Part shown: positions 3,991-9,092 of the stretch, piece by piece | Layout of the letters: every line of letters starts with the position of its first letter | Position numbering within the stretch: position 1 is the first letter of the stretch | NCBI GenBank assembly: GCA_902610315.1 | Contig: CACLVA010000003.1 | Location: forward strand, 62,001 to 126,000 | Length of the DNA: 64,000 nt | DNA from: an uncultured Pelagibacteraceae bacterium | GTDB taxonomy: Bacteria; Pseudomonadota; Alphaproteobacteria; Pelagibacterales; Pelagibacteraceae | Direction: 5' to 3' | Translations under genes and position numbers: made by a program | Notes under the pieces: model-generated | What the model was told of the DNA's origin: nothing | Seen by the model: the letters and a program-made list of their open reading frames with translations, nothing else | Database searches by the model: none

Positions 3991-4485
3991 ATGGTAAAAG
4001 TTGTTGATAATCTCTTAAGCCCTGAAGAATTTAAAAAATTAAATGATGTGTTAATGGGTCCCGAATTTCCGTGGTATTTCTTGCCAAGCAAAGTCCACTC
4101 TGGTGACGGAAATTTTCAGTTTTGCCACAATTTTATATTATCTGGCAAAATAGTATCTAAATTTGTAACTATTTTGGATCCTTTTTTAACTAAATTAAAC
4201 ATGAAAAAAGTAATTAGAATTAAAGCTAATAAAACATTTAAAAAAAAAGAGAATATTGAGTCTGCAATGCATACTGATGTGACCAGAAAAGATGATGAAA
4301 AATTTAAGACTGCGGTTTTTTATTGTAATTCTAACAATGGTTCTACTATGTTTGAAAATGGTAAAAAAGTTGAAAGTAAAGCGAACAGAGCAGTAGTATT
4401 TGATGGCAGAACTTTACATTGCGGAGTAGATTGCACAGATTCGCTTAGAAGGGTTGTAATAAACTTTAATTATATAGATGAGTAG
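3991..4485 (+). CDS. small 2OG-Fe(II) oxygenase-like protein
   Basis: A 164-aa protein carrying the iron-binding facial triad pattern His94-x-Asp96 (MHTD) and His143 (TLHCG), followed by Arg153/Arg154 as the likely 2-oxoglutarate ligand. Spacing and size fit a minimal double-stranded beta-helix dioxygenase of the prolyl-hydroxylase/PhyH-like kind, common in marine bacteria and cyanophages. The product would hydroxylate a protein or small molecule with O2 and 2-oxoglutarate, and the substrate is unknown. It sits alone, 37 nt after the DMT gene and upstream of the glycine riboswitch. The fold assignment is an inference from the motif order. Confidence 0.7.
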   Translation: MVKVVDNLLSPEEFKKLNDVLMGPEFPWYFLPSKVHSGDGNFQFCHNFILSGKIVSKFVTILDPFLTKLNMKKVIRIKANKTFKKKENIESAMHTDVTRKDDEKFKTAVFYCNSNNGSTMFENGKKVESKANRAVVFDGRTLHCGVDCTDSLRRVVINFNYIDE

Positions 4486-4569
4486 AATCTGTTGTAATTA
4501 ACTTTACCTCTAAAAACCTTATTTACTTAGATTTATGATATATTTTTTATCTATCTTTTTGTTTATTTA

Positions 4570-4575
4570 TATGAT
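4570..4575 (+). promoter_or_regulatory. possible -10 element for the gcv transcript
   Basis: TATGAT lies so that initiation 7-8 nt downstream would start the RNA at about 4582, just before the first riboswitch helix at 4587. I see no good -35 hexamer at standard spacing, and -10-like words are frequent in such AT-rich DNA, so support is mostly positional. Confidence 0.3.
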
Positions 4576-4586
4576 ATTAATTCTCA

Positions 4587-4726
4587 TACGGGAGAGACTA
4601 CGTATTTGTAGCGCCGAAGGAGCAACCACCCCGGAAACTCTCAGGCAAAAGGACCGTACATATTAACTCTGGAAAGAGATAAATTCTCGCCGAAGGAGCC
4701 AAAATCTCTCAGGCACACCGACAGAG
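4587..4726 (+). ncRNA. tandem glycine riboswitch (two aptamers)
   Basis: Two consecutive glycine aptamers. Aptamer 1 spans 4587-4658 and is closed by a 5-bp P1 (TACGG 4587-4591 with CCGTA 4654-4658). It contains the conserved GCCGAAGGAGCAA core and CTCTCAGGCAAAAGGACCG. Aptamer 2 spans 4667-4726, closed by CTCTG 4667-4671 with CAGAG 4722-4726, with the core GCCGAAGGAGCC and CTCTCAGGCA. It lies directly upstream of gcvT, the classic target of this class, and glycine riboswitches on gcvT are known in SAR11. Ligand binding would stabilise the P1 of aptamer 2, the strand that can otherwise mask the gcvT start. Confidence 0.95.
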
Positions 4727-4748
4727 GGGGTTTAGAAGAGTTAATATG
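4659..4748 (+). promoter_or_regulatory. 12-nt start-codon-masking pair of the glycine riboswitch
   Basis: CATATTAACTCT (4659-4670) is the exact reverse complement of AGAGTTAATATG (4737-4748), which holds the weak Shine-Dalgarno stretch and the gcvT AUG. The first strand is the inter-aptamer linker plus the 5' side of P1 in aptamer 2, so masking and ligand-bound P1 are mutually exclusive. The pairing is seen directly. The inferred outcome is translation ON when glycine is bound. Confidence 0.75.
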
Positions 4749-5849
4749 AATGTAAAAAAAACTGCACTGTACGAATTACACAAAAAGCATAAAGCTAAGT
4801 TCGTTGAGTTTGCTGGTTATAGTATGCCAATTCAATACTCCGAGGGAATTGTAAAAGAGCATAATATTACAAGAAATAAGTCTGGAATTTTTGATGTTTC
4901 GCATATGGGTCAGTTATTCATTAAATACAGTGATGACATAACAGATAAGCTCCAAGAAATTTTACCGACTGACCTGAAGAATTTAAAAATTAATCAAAGC
5001 AAGTATTCGTTTTTAATGAAAGAGAATGGGGGGATATATGATGATCTTATTATCACCAGGATGAAAGATCAGTACATGATTATTTTAAATGCTGCATGCA
5101 AACAAAACGATCTCCAGATTATTAAAAATAAATTGAATAATCAAAATTTGGATATGAACAATGATTTATCTCTTATAGCGATACAAGGTCCAGATTCTAA
5201 AATAATTCTAGAATATGTAGTTTCAAATGTATCAAAATTAAAATTTATGAATGGAGGAAACTTTTCTTTTGCAAATAATGAAATCTTTATAACAAGATCT
5301 GGATATACAGGTGAAGATGGCTTTGAAATATCATTACCTAATAAAGTTGCAATCTCTTTTGTAGAAGAATTAATTTTAAAAGGATCAACTTTAATCGGTT
5401 TAGGTGCAAGAGATACTTTAAGATTAGAGGCAGGTTTATGCTTGTATGGTCATGACATAAATGAAAATACCAGTCCAGTTGAAGCAAATTTAAAATGGGC
5501 TATTTCAAAAAATAGAATTAATGATAATTTTACAGGGTCACAAAAAATAAAAAAACAAATTGAAGAAGGTGTATCAAAATTAAGAGTTGGCATTAAACCA
5601 GAGACTAGAGTTATAGCAAGAGAGTCAACAAAAATTTTTGATGAAAAAGATAACGAGATTGGAAAAGTCACTAGTGGCACATTTGGACCAAGCGTTAATG
5701 CGTCTATCGCGATGGGTTATATTTCAAATTCTCATTCTAAAACAGATACAAAAATTTTCTTAGAAGTAAGAGGAAAAAAAGTACCTGCCAATGTTTGTGA
5801 TTTACCGTTTTATAAAAAAAGCTATGTGAAAGGAGAAGCTAATGTCTAA
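4746..5849 (+). CDS. gcvT: glycine cleavage system T protein (aminomethyltransferase)
   Basis: Transfers the aminomethyl carbon from the lipoyl arm of GcvH to tetrahydrofolate, giving 5,10-methylene-THF and ammonia. The 367 aa match the family length. Visible motifs include FDVSHMGQ near 47, the TGEDGFEI stretch, [20 protein letters not shown] (folate-site region) and a C-terminal barrel with VTSGTFGPS. First gene of gcvT-gcvH-gcvP; its stop overlaps gcvH by 8 nt. Translation is probably controlled by the tandem glycine riboswitch directly upstream. In SAR11 this pathway balances glycine use against one-carbon supply. Confidence 0.96.
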
Positions 5850-6222
5850 TACAAAATTTTCAAAAGAACATGAGTGGATTACACTAGACGGTGAGGTTGG
5901 AACTATTGGAATTACAAAACATGCAACTGAAATGTTAGGTGACATAGTTTTTGCTGAATTACCTGAGAAAGGATCTAATGTTGAAAAAGATGGAACTGCA
6001 GGGGTGGTAGAGTCAACAAAAGCCGCTAGCGACGTATATACTCCAGTAAGTGGTGAGGTTGTAGAAATTAATCAATCAATTGTTGATGATCCTTCAAAAA
6101 TTAATGCTGACCCAGAGGGTGGAGCATGGTTTTTTAAATTAAAGTTAAAAGATAAATCAGAACTCGATACTCTTATGAATAAAGACGAGTACGATAAATT
6201 TGCAAAGGAGACATCAGCATAA
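5842..6222 (+). CDS. gcvH: glycine cleavage system H protein
   Basis: Lipoyl carrier of the glycine cleavage complex, shuttling the aminomethyl intermediate from GcvP to GcvT and electrons to the L protein. The 126-aa product has the single lipoyl domain with the modified lysine Lys60 in [10 protein letters not shown], preceded by HEWI near the start and followed by [12 protein letters not shown]. Overlaps gcvT by 8 nt and gcvP by one base (TAATG), implying coupled translation of a stoichiometric complex. The L protein (lipoamide dehydrogenase) is not in this window. Confidence 0.97.
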
Positions 6223-9092
6223 TGTTACCAAATTCAGAAAAAGATTTTTTAAAGAGACACATTGGACCTTCTAAAGAAGATCAATCAAAAATGTTAAAAG
6301 AATTAAATTATCAATCACTAGATGATTTAATTGACAGCACAGTACCAGAAAAAATAAAGTTTAAAGGTGAATTAAATATTGGTGAGTCAAATTCAGAATA
6401 TGAAGCTTTAAGAAAACTAAGAACAATTTCAAAAAAAAATCAAGTTTATTCTAATTTTATTGGAATGGGTTATTACGGAACGTATACACCTTATGTAATT
6501 TTGAGAAATATATTAGAAAATCCAGGTTGGTATACCTCATATACGCCTTATCAGCCGGAAGTAGCTCAAGGAAGACTTGAGATGTTATTAAATTTTCAAC
6601 AAATGATAGTTGACTTTACAGGAATGGATATCGCTAATGCTTCTTTATTAGATGAGGGTACAGCTGCTGCGGAGGCTATGGGCCTAAGTCACAGATTAAA
6701 CAAAAAAGATAGTAATTTAGTTTTTGTATCTGAGGATTGCCATCCTCAAACAATAAATGTAATTCAAACTAGAGCTGAACCAATGGGTTTAAAAGTATTG
6801 ATTGGTAAAGAAGATGAGGTTTTAGACCAATTAAAGGAAGATTTAGTTTGTGGAATTTTACAATATCCAGGTACTTTAGGAGATATTAAAGACCCAAGTG
6901 AAGCAATTAGCAAAATTCATAAAAAGAATGGCAAGGCTGTATTAGCTTGTGATTTGTTAGCATTAGCAAAATTAAAAACGCCCAGAGAACTTGGTGCTGA
7001 TATAGCAGTCGGAAGCTCACAAAGATTTGGTATTCCAATGGGATATGGAGGCCCACACGCAGCTTTTTTTGCAACAAAAGATGAATACAAAAGATCAATG
7101 CCGGGAAGAATTGTCGGTGTGTCAGTTGATAGACATGGTAATAAGGCATATAGATTGTCCTTACAAACTAGAGAGCAACATATCAGAAGAGACAAGGCGA
7201 CAAGCAACATTTGTACTGCCCAAGCTTTATTAGCAATTGTATCAGCAGCATATTCCATTTATCACGGCCCAGATGGAATTAAGAATATTTCTGAAAGAGT
7301 ATCACAATTAGCAAAAAGTTTTGCAGATAAAATAAAACAGTCTGGATATGAACTTTATTCCAATTATTTTTTTGATACTGTTACAATTATTACTAAAGAA
7401 AAAACTGATCAAATTTATAAAAATGCTTTAAATCAAAAAGTCAATATACGTAAAGTAAATTCTGATATGCTTGCTGTTTCTTTTGATGAAAGAAAGAATG
7501 TTTATAGAGTAAATCAACTGTTAAAAATTTTTAACGCAGCAGAATCAATCAAAAAAGAAGATCCCTCAGTAAGTTTACCTAATCTTCCAAAAAACTTATT
7601 GAGAACCTCAAAATATTTAGAACATCCAGTTTTCAACTCATACCATTCTGAAACTGAAATGTTGAGATATTTAAAAAGATTAGAAGATAAGGATATAGCA
7701 TTGAATAGAACAATGATTGCACTTGGTTCATGTACAATGAAGCTAAATGCTGCCGCAGAGATGATCCCAATTTCATGGAAAGAGTTTGCAGAACCTCATC
7801 CATTTGTCCCAATTGAACAAATGGAAGGATTCAGAGATCTATTTACTGATCTAAAAAATTGGTTGCGTTCCATAACTGGTTTTTCGGGCGTTTCTCTTCA
7901 ACCTAATGCAGGTGCTCAAGGTGAATATGCAGGATTAATGGTTATTCGAAAGTATCATTTAGATAGAGATGAGGCCAATCGGAACATATGTTTAATTCCA
8001 AGTTCAGCACATGGTACTAATCCAGCAAGCGCACAAATGGCTGGAATGAAAGTTGTTGTTGTTAATTGTGATAAAGAGGGAAATGTTGATTTTGATGACT
8101 TAAAGAAAAAAGCAGAGCAACATTCTGAAAACCTCGGGGCATTAATGGTAACTTACCCCTCAACTCATGGAGTGTTCGAAGAAAAAATATCAGATATTTG
8201 TGAGTTAGTTCATAAACATGGCGGTCAGGTTTATATGGATGGCGCAAATCTAAATGCATTAGTAGGAATTGCTAAACCAGGAAATTTTGGTCCAGACGTT
8301 TGTCATATTAACTTACATAAAACGTTTTGTATTCCTCATGGTGGAGGAGGACCTGGAATGGGACCCATTGCTTGTAAAAGACATTTACAAGTCTACTTGC
8401 CCAATCACCCAGTAATAAAAGATTGTGGACCAACATCTGGAATTGGAGCAGTTTCCGCAGCCCCTTGGGGAAGTTCAAGCATTTTATCAATTTCTTGGAT
8501 GTATATTAAAATGATGGGATCAGCAGGATTAAAGCTTGCTACTCAAGTTGCGATATTGAATGCAAATTATATAGCTCATAGATTAAAAGATCACTTTCCG
8601 ATTTTGTACAAAGGGTCAAATGGCAATGTGGCACACGAATGTATTATTGATATTAGAAATATTAAATCAGAAACAGGAATAACAGAGGAAGATATTGCGA
8701 AAAGATTAATTGATTATGGTTTTCATGCACCAACTATGTCTTGGCCTGTCGCTGGTACTATGATGATAGAACCAACCGAGAGTGAAAATTTGAGAGAGAT
8801 AAATAGATTCTGTGATACGCTTATTAAGATCAAATCCGAAATTGACAATATAAAATCTGGTAAATTTGATAAAATAGATAATCCTATAAAGAATGCACCT
8901 CACACAGATTTAGAGCTTTCATCTGATGAATGGAACCATAAATACACACGTGAAGAGGCAGCTTATCCGTCTAAATTTTTGAAAAGTAATAAATTTTGGC
9001 CACCAGTTGCTAGAGTAGATAACGTGTATGGAGATAAAAATATATTCTGTACTTGTCCAAGTATGGATGAATTTAAAGAAGACGCAGCTTAA
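6222..9092 (+). CDS. gcvP: glycine dehydrogenase (decarboxylating), P protein
   Basis: PLP enzyme that decarboxylates glycine and loads the aminomethyl group onto lipoyl-GcvH. At 956 aa it is the single-chain form, with both homologous halves fused rather than split into gcvPA/gcvPB. The PLP lysine is Lys700 in NLHKTFCIPHGGGGPGMGP, and the N-terminal half has the family start KRHIGPS. It shares one base with gcvH and is followed after 5 nt by the flavoprotein gene at 9098, so the riboswitch-controlled transcript may continue further. Confidence 0.97.
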   Translation: MLPNSEKDFLKRHIGPSKEDQSKMLKELNYQSLDDLIDSTVPEKIKFKGELNIGESNSEYEALRKLRTISKKNQVYSNFIGMGYYGTYTPYVILRNILENPGWYTSYTPYQPEVAQGRLEMLLNFQQMIVDFTGMDIANASLLDEGTAAAEAMGLSHRLNKKDSNLVFVSEDCHPQTINVIQTRAEPMGLKVLIGKEDEVLDQLKEDLVCGILQYPGTLGDIKDPSEAISKIHKKNGKAVLACDLLALAKLKTPRELGADIAVGSSQRFGIPMGYGGPHAAFFATKDEYKRSMPGRIVGVSVDRHGNKAYRLSLQTREQHIRRDKATSNICTAQALLAIVSAAYSIYHGPDGIKNISERVSQLAKSFADKIKQSGYELYSNYFFDTVTIITKEKTDQIYKNALNQKVNIRKVNSDMLAVSFDERKNVYRVNQLLKIFNAAESIKKEDPSVSLPNLPKNLLRTSKYLEHPVFNSYHSETEMLRYLKRLEDKDIALNRTMIALGSCTMKLNAAAEMIPISWKEFAEPHPFVPIEQMEGFRDLFTDLKNWLRSITGFSGVSLQPNAGAQGEYAGLMVIRKYHLDRDEANRNICLIPSSAHGTNPASAQMAGMKVVVVNCDKEGNVDFDDLKKKAEQHSENLGALMVTYPSTHGVFEEKISDICELVHKHGGQVYMDGANLNALVGIAKPGNFGPDVCHINLHKTFCIPHGGGGPGMGPIACKRHLQVYLPNHPVIKDCGPTSGIGAVSAAPWGSSSILSISWMYIKMMGSAGLKLATQVAILNANYIAHRLKDHFPILYKGSNGNVAHECIIDIRNIKSETGITEEDIAKRLIDYGFHAPTMSWPVAGTMMIEPTESENLREINRFCDTLIKIKSEIDNIKSGKFDKIDNPIKNAPHTDLELSSDEWNHKYTREEAAYPSKFLKSNKFWPPVARVDNVYGDKNIFCTCPSMDEFKEDAA

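Follow-up and report, generated by a model that had tools for sequence, protein, structure and literature searches.

The leader of gcvT in an uncultured Pelagibacteraceae bacterium (SAR11, abundant in the ocean) is, judged by its sequence, a tandem glycine riboswitch of class RF00504. We read it as a translational ON switch whose anti-ribosome-binding-site (anti-RBS) strand is carried by the linker between the two aptamers, and we put the probability of this reading at roughly 0.83. The leader lies on a 64,000-nucleotide stretch of contig CACLVA010000003.1 (assembly GCA_902610315.1, positions 62,001 to 126,000 of the forward strand), called the window below, and coordinates count from its first letter. 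Within it, CATATTAACTCT at 4659–4670 and AGAGTTAATATG at 4737–4748 are exact 12-nt reverse complements, as a first-pass annotation of the window had pointed out. The first strand consists of the inter-aptamer linker and part of the P1 helix of aptamer 2. It follows directly on P1 of aptamer 1, which ends at 4658 (CCGUA 4654–4658), just where that annotation had placed it. The second strand holds, again as annotated, the ribosome-binding stretch and the gcvT ATG (4746–4748). Of the 62 ATG open reading frames (ORFs) in the window that encode 100 aa or more, gcvT among them, only gcvT had an exact complement exceeding 9 nt in length between -9 to +3 and -130 to -25. Over 20,000 random positions, the probability of a match of at least 12 nt was 0.00015.

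Leaders for comparison were collected by searching with GcvT, by RF00504 searches at genus, order, and class level, and from fetched stretches. The named gcvT loci nearest to the window gcvT belong to Pelagibacteraceae (SAR11), with protein identity up to 97%. A tandem pattern took 143 of the loci L001–L165. The 22 that it missed comprised eight without an aptamer core (truncated, paralogous, or non-SAR11), 13 with a leader (five gcvT and eight of glcB type), and L163, which has a single RF00504 match (55.5 bits) and no recognisable tandem leader. After removal of duplicates, 101 distinct leaders were called gcvT. Alignment A1 contains 100 of these, all from SAR11 and aligned without structural guidance, with L167 (of another order) excluded; L183, a gcvT leader of another order that had been labelled glcB, is likewise excluded. 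One row, L155, is misaligned by one column. Alignment A2 contains 38 distinct leaders of glcB, the malate synthase G gene.

The first-pass annotation had claimed a decision helix in exactly this register, and covariation in the gcvT leaders supports it. In A1, standard pairs filled 97.7% of 1,200 cells (12 pairs in 100 leaders) vs a shuffled mean of 93.1%, and slid registers of the helix had 35–43% of cells paired. Compensatory changes between the strands in related genomes had been named as the check, and two-sided changes were found at five of the 12 pairs, in 32 cells. Five measures were compared with 500 shuffles, and on none of them did any shuffle come up to the observed figure. A scan for 10-bp helices with more than 80% of cells paired returned only this register and shifts along the same diagonal. 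Furthermore, RNAalifold run without a given structure recovered aptamer 1, P2 and P3 of aptamer 2, and 11 of the 12 masking pairs, and did not return P1 of aptamer 2. Parsimony on a gcvT tree, which at about 80 codons is short and gives only rough event numbers, yielded eight two-sided changes (one of them due to the misaligned L155), 16 one-sided changes that preserve pairing, and 23 that break it. Seven of the breaking changes come from L155, and 13 of the other 16 sit at the end pairs 4659/4748 and 4670/4737. Genera g2–g6 have different strand sequences that are again matched to each other.

The longest uninterrupted helix is 11–13 pairs in 96 of the A1 leaders and 10 pairs in two more. The masking helix takes up the whole CUCU in 93 leaders and three nucleotides of it in the other 7, and the masked strand contains GAG in 99 and GGG in one. 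The AUG is less constant: it lies wholly inside the helix in 77 leaders, partly inside in 6, and wholly outside in 17. In the clade of L062, the AUG has shifted downstream and a C-G pair at the helix end has become A-U, with 12–13 pairs retained. The constant part is thus the masking of the Shine-Dalgarno (SD)-like AGAG by CUCU, with the AUG as a frequent addition. The annotation's perfect masking of the AUG is lineage-specific. Ten more distinct gcvT leaders stand outside A1, part of them obtained after it was built; 12 pairs form in L020, L224, L230, and L243 and 11 in L032, L219, and L240. L216 was left out of this count, as a script had picked the wrong ATG; the same recount script erred likewise for L023, L103, L134, and L220, which are members of A1 or A2. 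L164 (156–340) and L165 (157–341) have a longer, different insert in place of P2 of aptamer 1, and both aptamer cores and the anti-RBS helix are retained.

The linker/RBS duplex was more stable than with shuffled linkers (z < -2) in 59 of the 61 distinct combinations of gcvT linker and start and in 15 of 17 glcB combinations. The own start was strictly the best of all starts in just 8 of 78 combinations; this ranking is weak as a test because many leaders share sequences, and means were used instead. The mean duplex of gcvT linkers was -14.0 kcal/mol with their own start, -12.4 with other gcvT starts, and -5.5 with glcB starts, and the values for glcB linkers in the same comparison were -10.0, -8.7, and -6.8 kcal/mol. 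The RBS was unpaired on average at 0.05 in 59 gcvT combinations vs 0.47 in 120 linker shuffles, a loose comparison in that the shuffles were drawn from the first 40 rows, possibly including glcB rows.

We also folded the leader with and without a P1 constraint, another check proposed by the annotation. In the window, the masked state came to -48.2 kcal/mol and the state with P1 of aptamer 2 forced to -39.3, so that the masked state is lower by 8.9 kcal/mol in energies that omit ligand and tertiary terms. The RBS opened at a cost of 9.9 kcal/mol when masked (-48.2 to -38.3) and of 1.4 kcal/mol when P1 was forced (-39.3 to -37.9). Across the 61 gcvT combinations, the mean opening cost fell from 7.7 to 3.1 kcal/mol with P1 held, and in 49 of them (52 at 20°C) the held P1 saved 3 kcal/mol or more. 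With a growing 3' end, the probability of P1 of aptamer 2 was 0.31–0.67 at ends 4726–4740 and at most 0.01 from 4744 on. Masking took over between 4742 and 4748, with a probability of 0.58–0.99 from 4744 on.

Taken together, these data suggest the following mechanism. Without glycine, 4659–4670 (linker plus 5' P1 strand of aptamer 2) would pair with the AGAG, spacer, and AUG of gcvT at 4737–4748, and this pairing would block the ribosome. With glycine, aptamer 2 would retain CUCU (4667–4670) in its own P1 with CAGAG (4722–4726). AGAG would thereby be freed, and the remaining eight A/U-rich pairs would be too weak to keep the AUG closed. Glycine would in this way probably turn gcvT translation on by freeing the ribosome landing site; we infer this direction, as we infer that AGAG at 4737–4740 acts as the SD. 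Because P1 of aptamer 2 is complete at 4726 and its rival only at 4744–4748, the decision probably falls in a short interval of transcription. The earlier claim that glycine frees the start codon draws support from the four-pair overlap at CUCU and from the computed energies, and loses its premise that all 12 pairs are excluded.

Several results weigh against this reading. Only four of the 12 pairs share CUCU 4667–4670 with P1 of aptamer 2, and the other eight can formally coexist with it; the annotation's statement that the two helices cannot coexist holds for the four and not for the eight. Its headline overstates both the masking of the AUG and the exclusivity, and the helix itself is real and its register correct. 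With the masked state so favoured in the model, any action of glycine has to be kinetic or draw on a large tertiary contribution. In 12 of 61 gcvT and 15 of 17 glcB combinations, the opening cost shifts by under 3 kcal/mol when P1 is held. P1 of aptamer 2, tried as a covariation control, is paired in 93.0% of A1 cells and shows no covariation in A1, and its outermost pair, C4667-G4726, is formed in 66 leaders and missing in 34. One slid control, +3, has two-sided changes at six pairs vs the five observed; only 37.8% of its cells are paired, and the changes occupy 14 cells vs 32. Finally, L089 and L159 keep uninterrupted helices of 7 and 8 pairs, and L122 and L127 (gcvT, outside A1) keep 10 pairs with just two of the four AGAG/CUCU pairs.

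The features of the window leader and its genes are listed in Table 1. Both aptamers exceed the RF00504 gathering score of 32, the match to aptamer 2 appearing in one of two Rfam scans. Their tandem arrangement with a short linker and the glycine-metabolism genes gcvT, gcvH, and gcvP downstream are consistent with the class, as is an alternative helix between an aptamer-side strand and the RBS with a translational, RBS-masking riboswitch. In A1 rows with letters at these positions, the inner four pairs of P1 of aptamer 1 are always standard, and the outermost is standard in 65.3%. A transcriptional (terminator) riboswitch was also considered and set aside: a simple consensus scan of 4480–4800 found no intrinsic terminator-like site before gcvT. 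The same scan gave no sigma-70-like promoter in that interval.

Table 1. Parts of the gcvT riboswitch and downstream genes in the window
Feature	Coordinates	Strand	Basis or remark
Glycine aptamer 1	4587–4658	+	RF00504, 66.6 bits; Rfam span 4579–4666
Aptamer 1 P1	UACGG 4587–4591 with CCGUA 4654–4658	+	Read from sequence
Inter-aptamer linker CAUAUUAA, 5' two thirds of anti-RBS strand	4659–4666	+	8 nt
Glycine aptamer 2	4667–4726	+	RF00504, 47.1 bits; Rfam span 4659–4734
Aptamer 2 P1	CUCUG 4667–4671 with CAGAG 4722–4726	+	Read from sequence
Anti-RBS strand CAUAUUAACUCU	4659–4670	+	Exact complement, covariation, helix scan, RNAalifold
Masked strand AGAGUUAAUAUG: SD-like AGAG 4737–4740, spacer, AUG 4746–4748	4737–4748	+	SD role putative
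gcvT, aminomethyltransferase of glycine cleavage, regulated gene	4746–5849	+	ORF and NCBIfam
gcvH	5842–6222	+	Overlaps gcvT; presumably same operon
gcvP	6222–9092	+	Overlaps gcvH; presumably same operon

A second riboswitch precedes glcB (four loci tested). In the same place as the gcvT helix, the 38 leaders of A2 have a nine-pair helix between linker GCAUAACACU and start AGUGcUAUGC. It is paired in 97.1% of cells, with two-sided changes at three pairs in just four cells; the slid control -3 likewise has three such pairs, and the sequence evidence for the glcB helix is conservation more than covariation. A conserved A.C mismatch stands in the middle of the linker/AUG helix in 31 of the 38 leaders and A.A in 5 (e.g., L132, 129–317). 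Eight distinct glcB leaders fall outside A2 (L003, L006, L008, L027, L102, L217, L227, and L228); the CAC/GUG core is visible in seven of them and absent from view in L227. Among the glcB combinations tested, L126 and L156 have no such linker/start helix. Read from the sequence, the glcB helix in most leaders shares hardly anything with P1 of aptamer 2, and the held P1 eased opening by at least 3 kcal/mol in just 2 of 17 combinations. The energy test, as modelled, does not support switching in glcB, and the linker/AUG complementarity that it shares with gcvT need not mean the same way of switching. In L006, L027, and L217, a start side of AGAGUG or AGGGUG pairs with CACUCU, which gives more overlap with P1 than in other glcB leaders. 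L016 (1416–1595, minus strand) is a glcB leader with a gcvT-like linker and start, UAUUAACUCU / AGAGUUAAUA, unlike the other glcB leaders.

Four other explanations were weighed. The switch could act mainly on the mRNA, through Rho-dependent termination or decay, with masking of the start merely as the trigger. The effects of the translational riboswitch of Neisseria gonorrhoeae were, according to the parts of the report compared here, measured partly at the mRNA level (PMC13104608), which would fit; there is no intrinsic terminator-like site in 4480–4800, and we consider the idea rather unlikely.

It is improbable, in our judgement, that the helix is real and glycine nonetheless leaves the start closed (OFF or unchanged). 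Bound aptamer 2 would then bring linker and start together, and the eight linker pairs compatible with P1 would stack on it with the AUG still closed. The model lends this some credit, as even with P1 forced the start of the window leader stays closed by a margin of 1.4 kcal/mol, and the opening cost of the glcB RBS barely moves with P1 held (mean 5.2 to 4.4 kcal/mol). The drop in the gcvT opening cost is much larger, however, and the gcvT masking helix draws on CUCU in every A1 leader. Induction of a glycine-degrading gene by glycine is also the usual logic. Tripp in 2009 reportedly described, to go by the title, a glycine-activated riboswitch in SAR11.

The linker might instead have the 5' leader as its main partner, in the P0 kink-turn of usual tandem glycine riboswitches, with complementarity to the start as a secondary matter. 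We counted GA kink-turn motifs by a rough definition of our own, with linker spans not quite equal between SAR11 and the outgroup. GA was found in the linker of none of 98 SAR11 gcvT leaders and in the leader of 36. GA in both leader and linker, the mark of a P0 kink-turn, occurred in 0 of these 98 and 0 of 38 glcB leaders vs 19 of 27 from other Alphaproteobacteria. A leader-linker duplex was found at z < -2 in 5 of 60 SAR11 and 4 of 26 outgroup leaders, and at z < -1.5 in 8 of 83 and 4 of 27. This energy test has no power, because it failed in the outgroup as well, and the motif count was used instead. Reads of SAR11 riboswitches start at P1 or no more than 15 nt before it, by the part of PMC5069720 compared, which fits a missing P0. 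The usual leader-linker kink-turn is thus apparently absent from the SAR11 gcvT riboswitch, and a linker devoted to P0 seems very improbable. If the kink-turn is really missing, SAR11 offers a natural test of the purpose of P0 and of the tandem arrangement.

Least credible of all, and already contradicted by the covariation seen in the alignment, is that linker and start never pair and owe their complementarity to separate constraints on the two strands (aptamer fold, ribosome binding): both strands are indeed strongly conserved, with two of the 12 pairs invariant in A1, but no shuffle matches the two-sided changes, slid registers pair poorly, and glcB leaders and genera g2–g6 have different sequences that still match.

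The translational ON reading can also be set against relatives outside SAR11. RF00504 matched in 55 of the 96 genomes sampled from the class; 29 loci were examined among the matches listed, and 26 or 27 with two adjacent aptamers were tested. Linker/RBS pairing reached z < -2 in 5 of 26 of these other Alphaproteobacteria vs 59 of 61 in SAR11. In these five (L167, L171, L173, L180, and L194), the linker and P1 strand pair with the gcvT RBS using other sequences, perhaps the same trick elsewhere. The start lies 37–105 nt beyond the Rfam end of aptamer 2 in 26 of the gcvT leaders, with starts chosen by script and some (TTG) possibly wrong, vs 11 nt in the window. We give about even odds to the idea that the SAR11 linker gave up the kink-turn kept by most relatives and became the expression platform of both gcvT and glcB with separate matched sequences, the anti-RBS strand lying inside the tandem aptamer before aptamer 2. 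If so, a tandem sensor could be cut down until only a few nucleotides separate aptamer and start, the kind of saving expected under genome streamlining.

In some genomes of the order, no RF00504 match was found. Eleven that are 94–100% complete (G004, G225, G240, G251, G276, G282, G308, G249, G202, G204, and G206) showed neither RF00504 nor an orthologous gcvT; in ten of them the only aminomethyltransferases are paralogues with no more than 31% identity, and G249 has no match. G003 and G005 (79% complete) give the same picture. In G008 (79% complete), gcvT lacks its first 62 residues, and hence the leader is not visible.

Glycine riboswitches of SAR11 gcvT and glcB are already in print (PMC2211319, PMC2704228, PMC5069720), as the first-pass annotation had said. 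Those described in "Candidatus Pelagibacter ubique" (PMC2211319, PMC2704228) share the class, tandem aptamers, genes, and bacterial group with ours, and the parts of these descriptions compared do not describe the expression platform. In the parts compared of other papers, one model omitted the expression platform owing to the diversity of mechanisms (PMC6944388), whole-riboswitch models were built with other classes named (PMC13273304), and two add nothing on the platform (PMC3160333, PMC9549626). Titles and abstract openings in the literature searched, subscription papers aside, contain no description of a SAR11 glycine expression platform. The riboswitch is known, and its linker-borne expression platform appears to be a new form of a known type: a covariation-backed platform for a riboswitch common in ocean metagenomes, with a testable four-pair exchange between P1 of aptamer 2 and the SD-like stretch.

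The transcriptional gcvT riboswitch of Bacillus subtilis, to judge from the parts of the report compared (PMC5666159), likewise has tandem aptamers with one platform and is ON with glycine. It differs in having a rho-independent terminator and a required leader-linker kink-turn, whereas the SAR11 leader has no terminator-like site and apparently no kink-turn. The closest tested relative, on the same partial view of its source, is the translational tandem ON riboswitch of N. gonorrhoeae gcvT (PMC13104608). There, glycine raises gcvT expression, as proposed here, and a segment of aptamer 2 base-pairs immediately 5' of the start codon when glycine is absent. However, P3a, P3, and P1 of aptamer 2 supply the gonococcal blocking strand, whereas in SAR11 it would consist of the linker together with the 5' P1 strand, and its target often includes the AUG itself.
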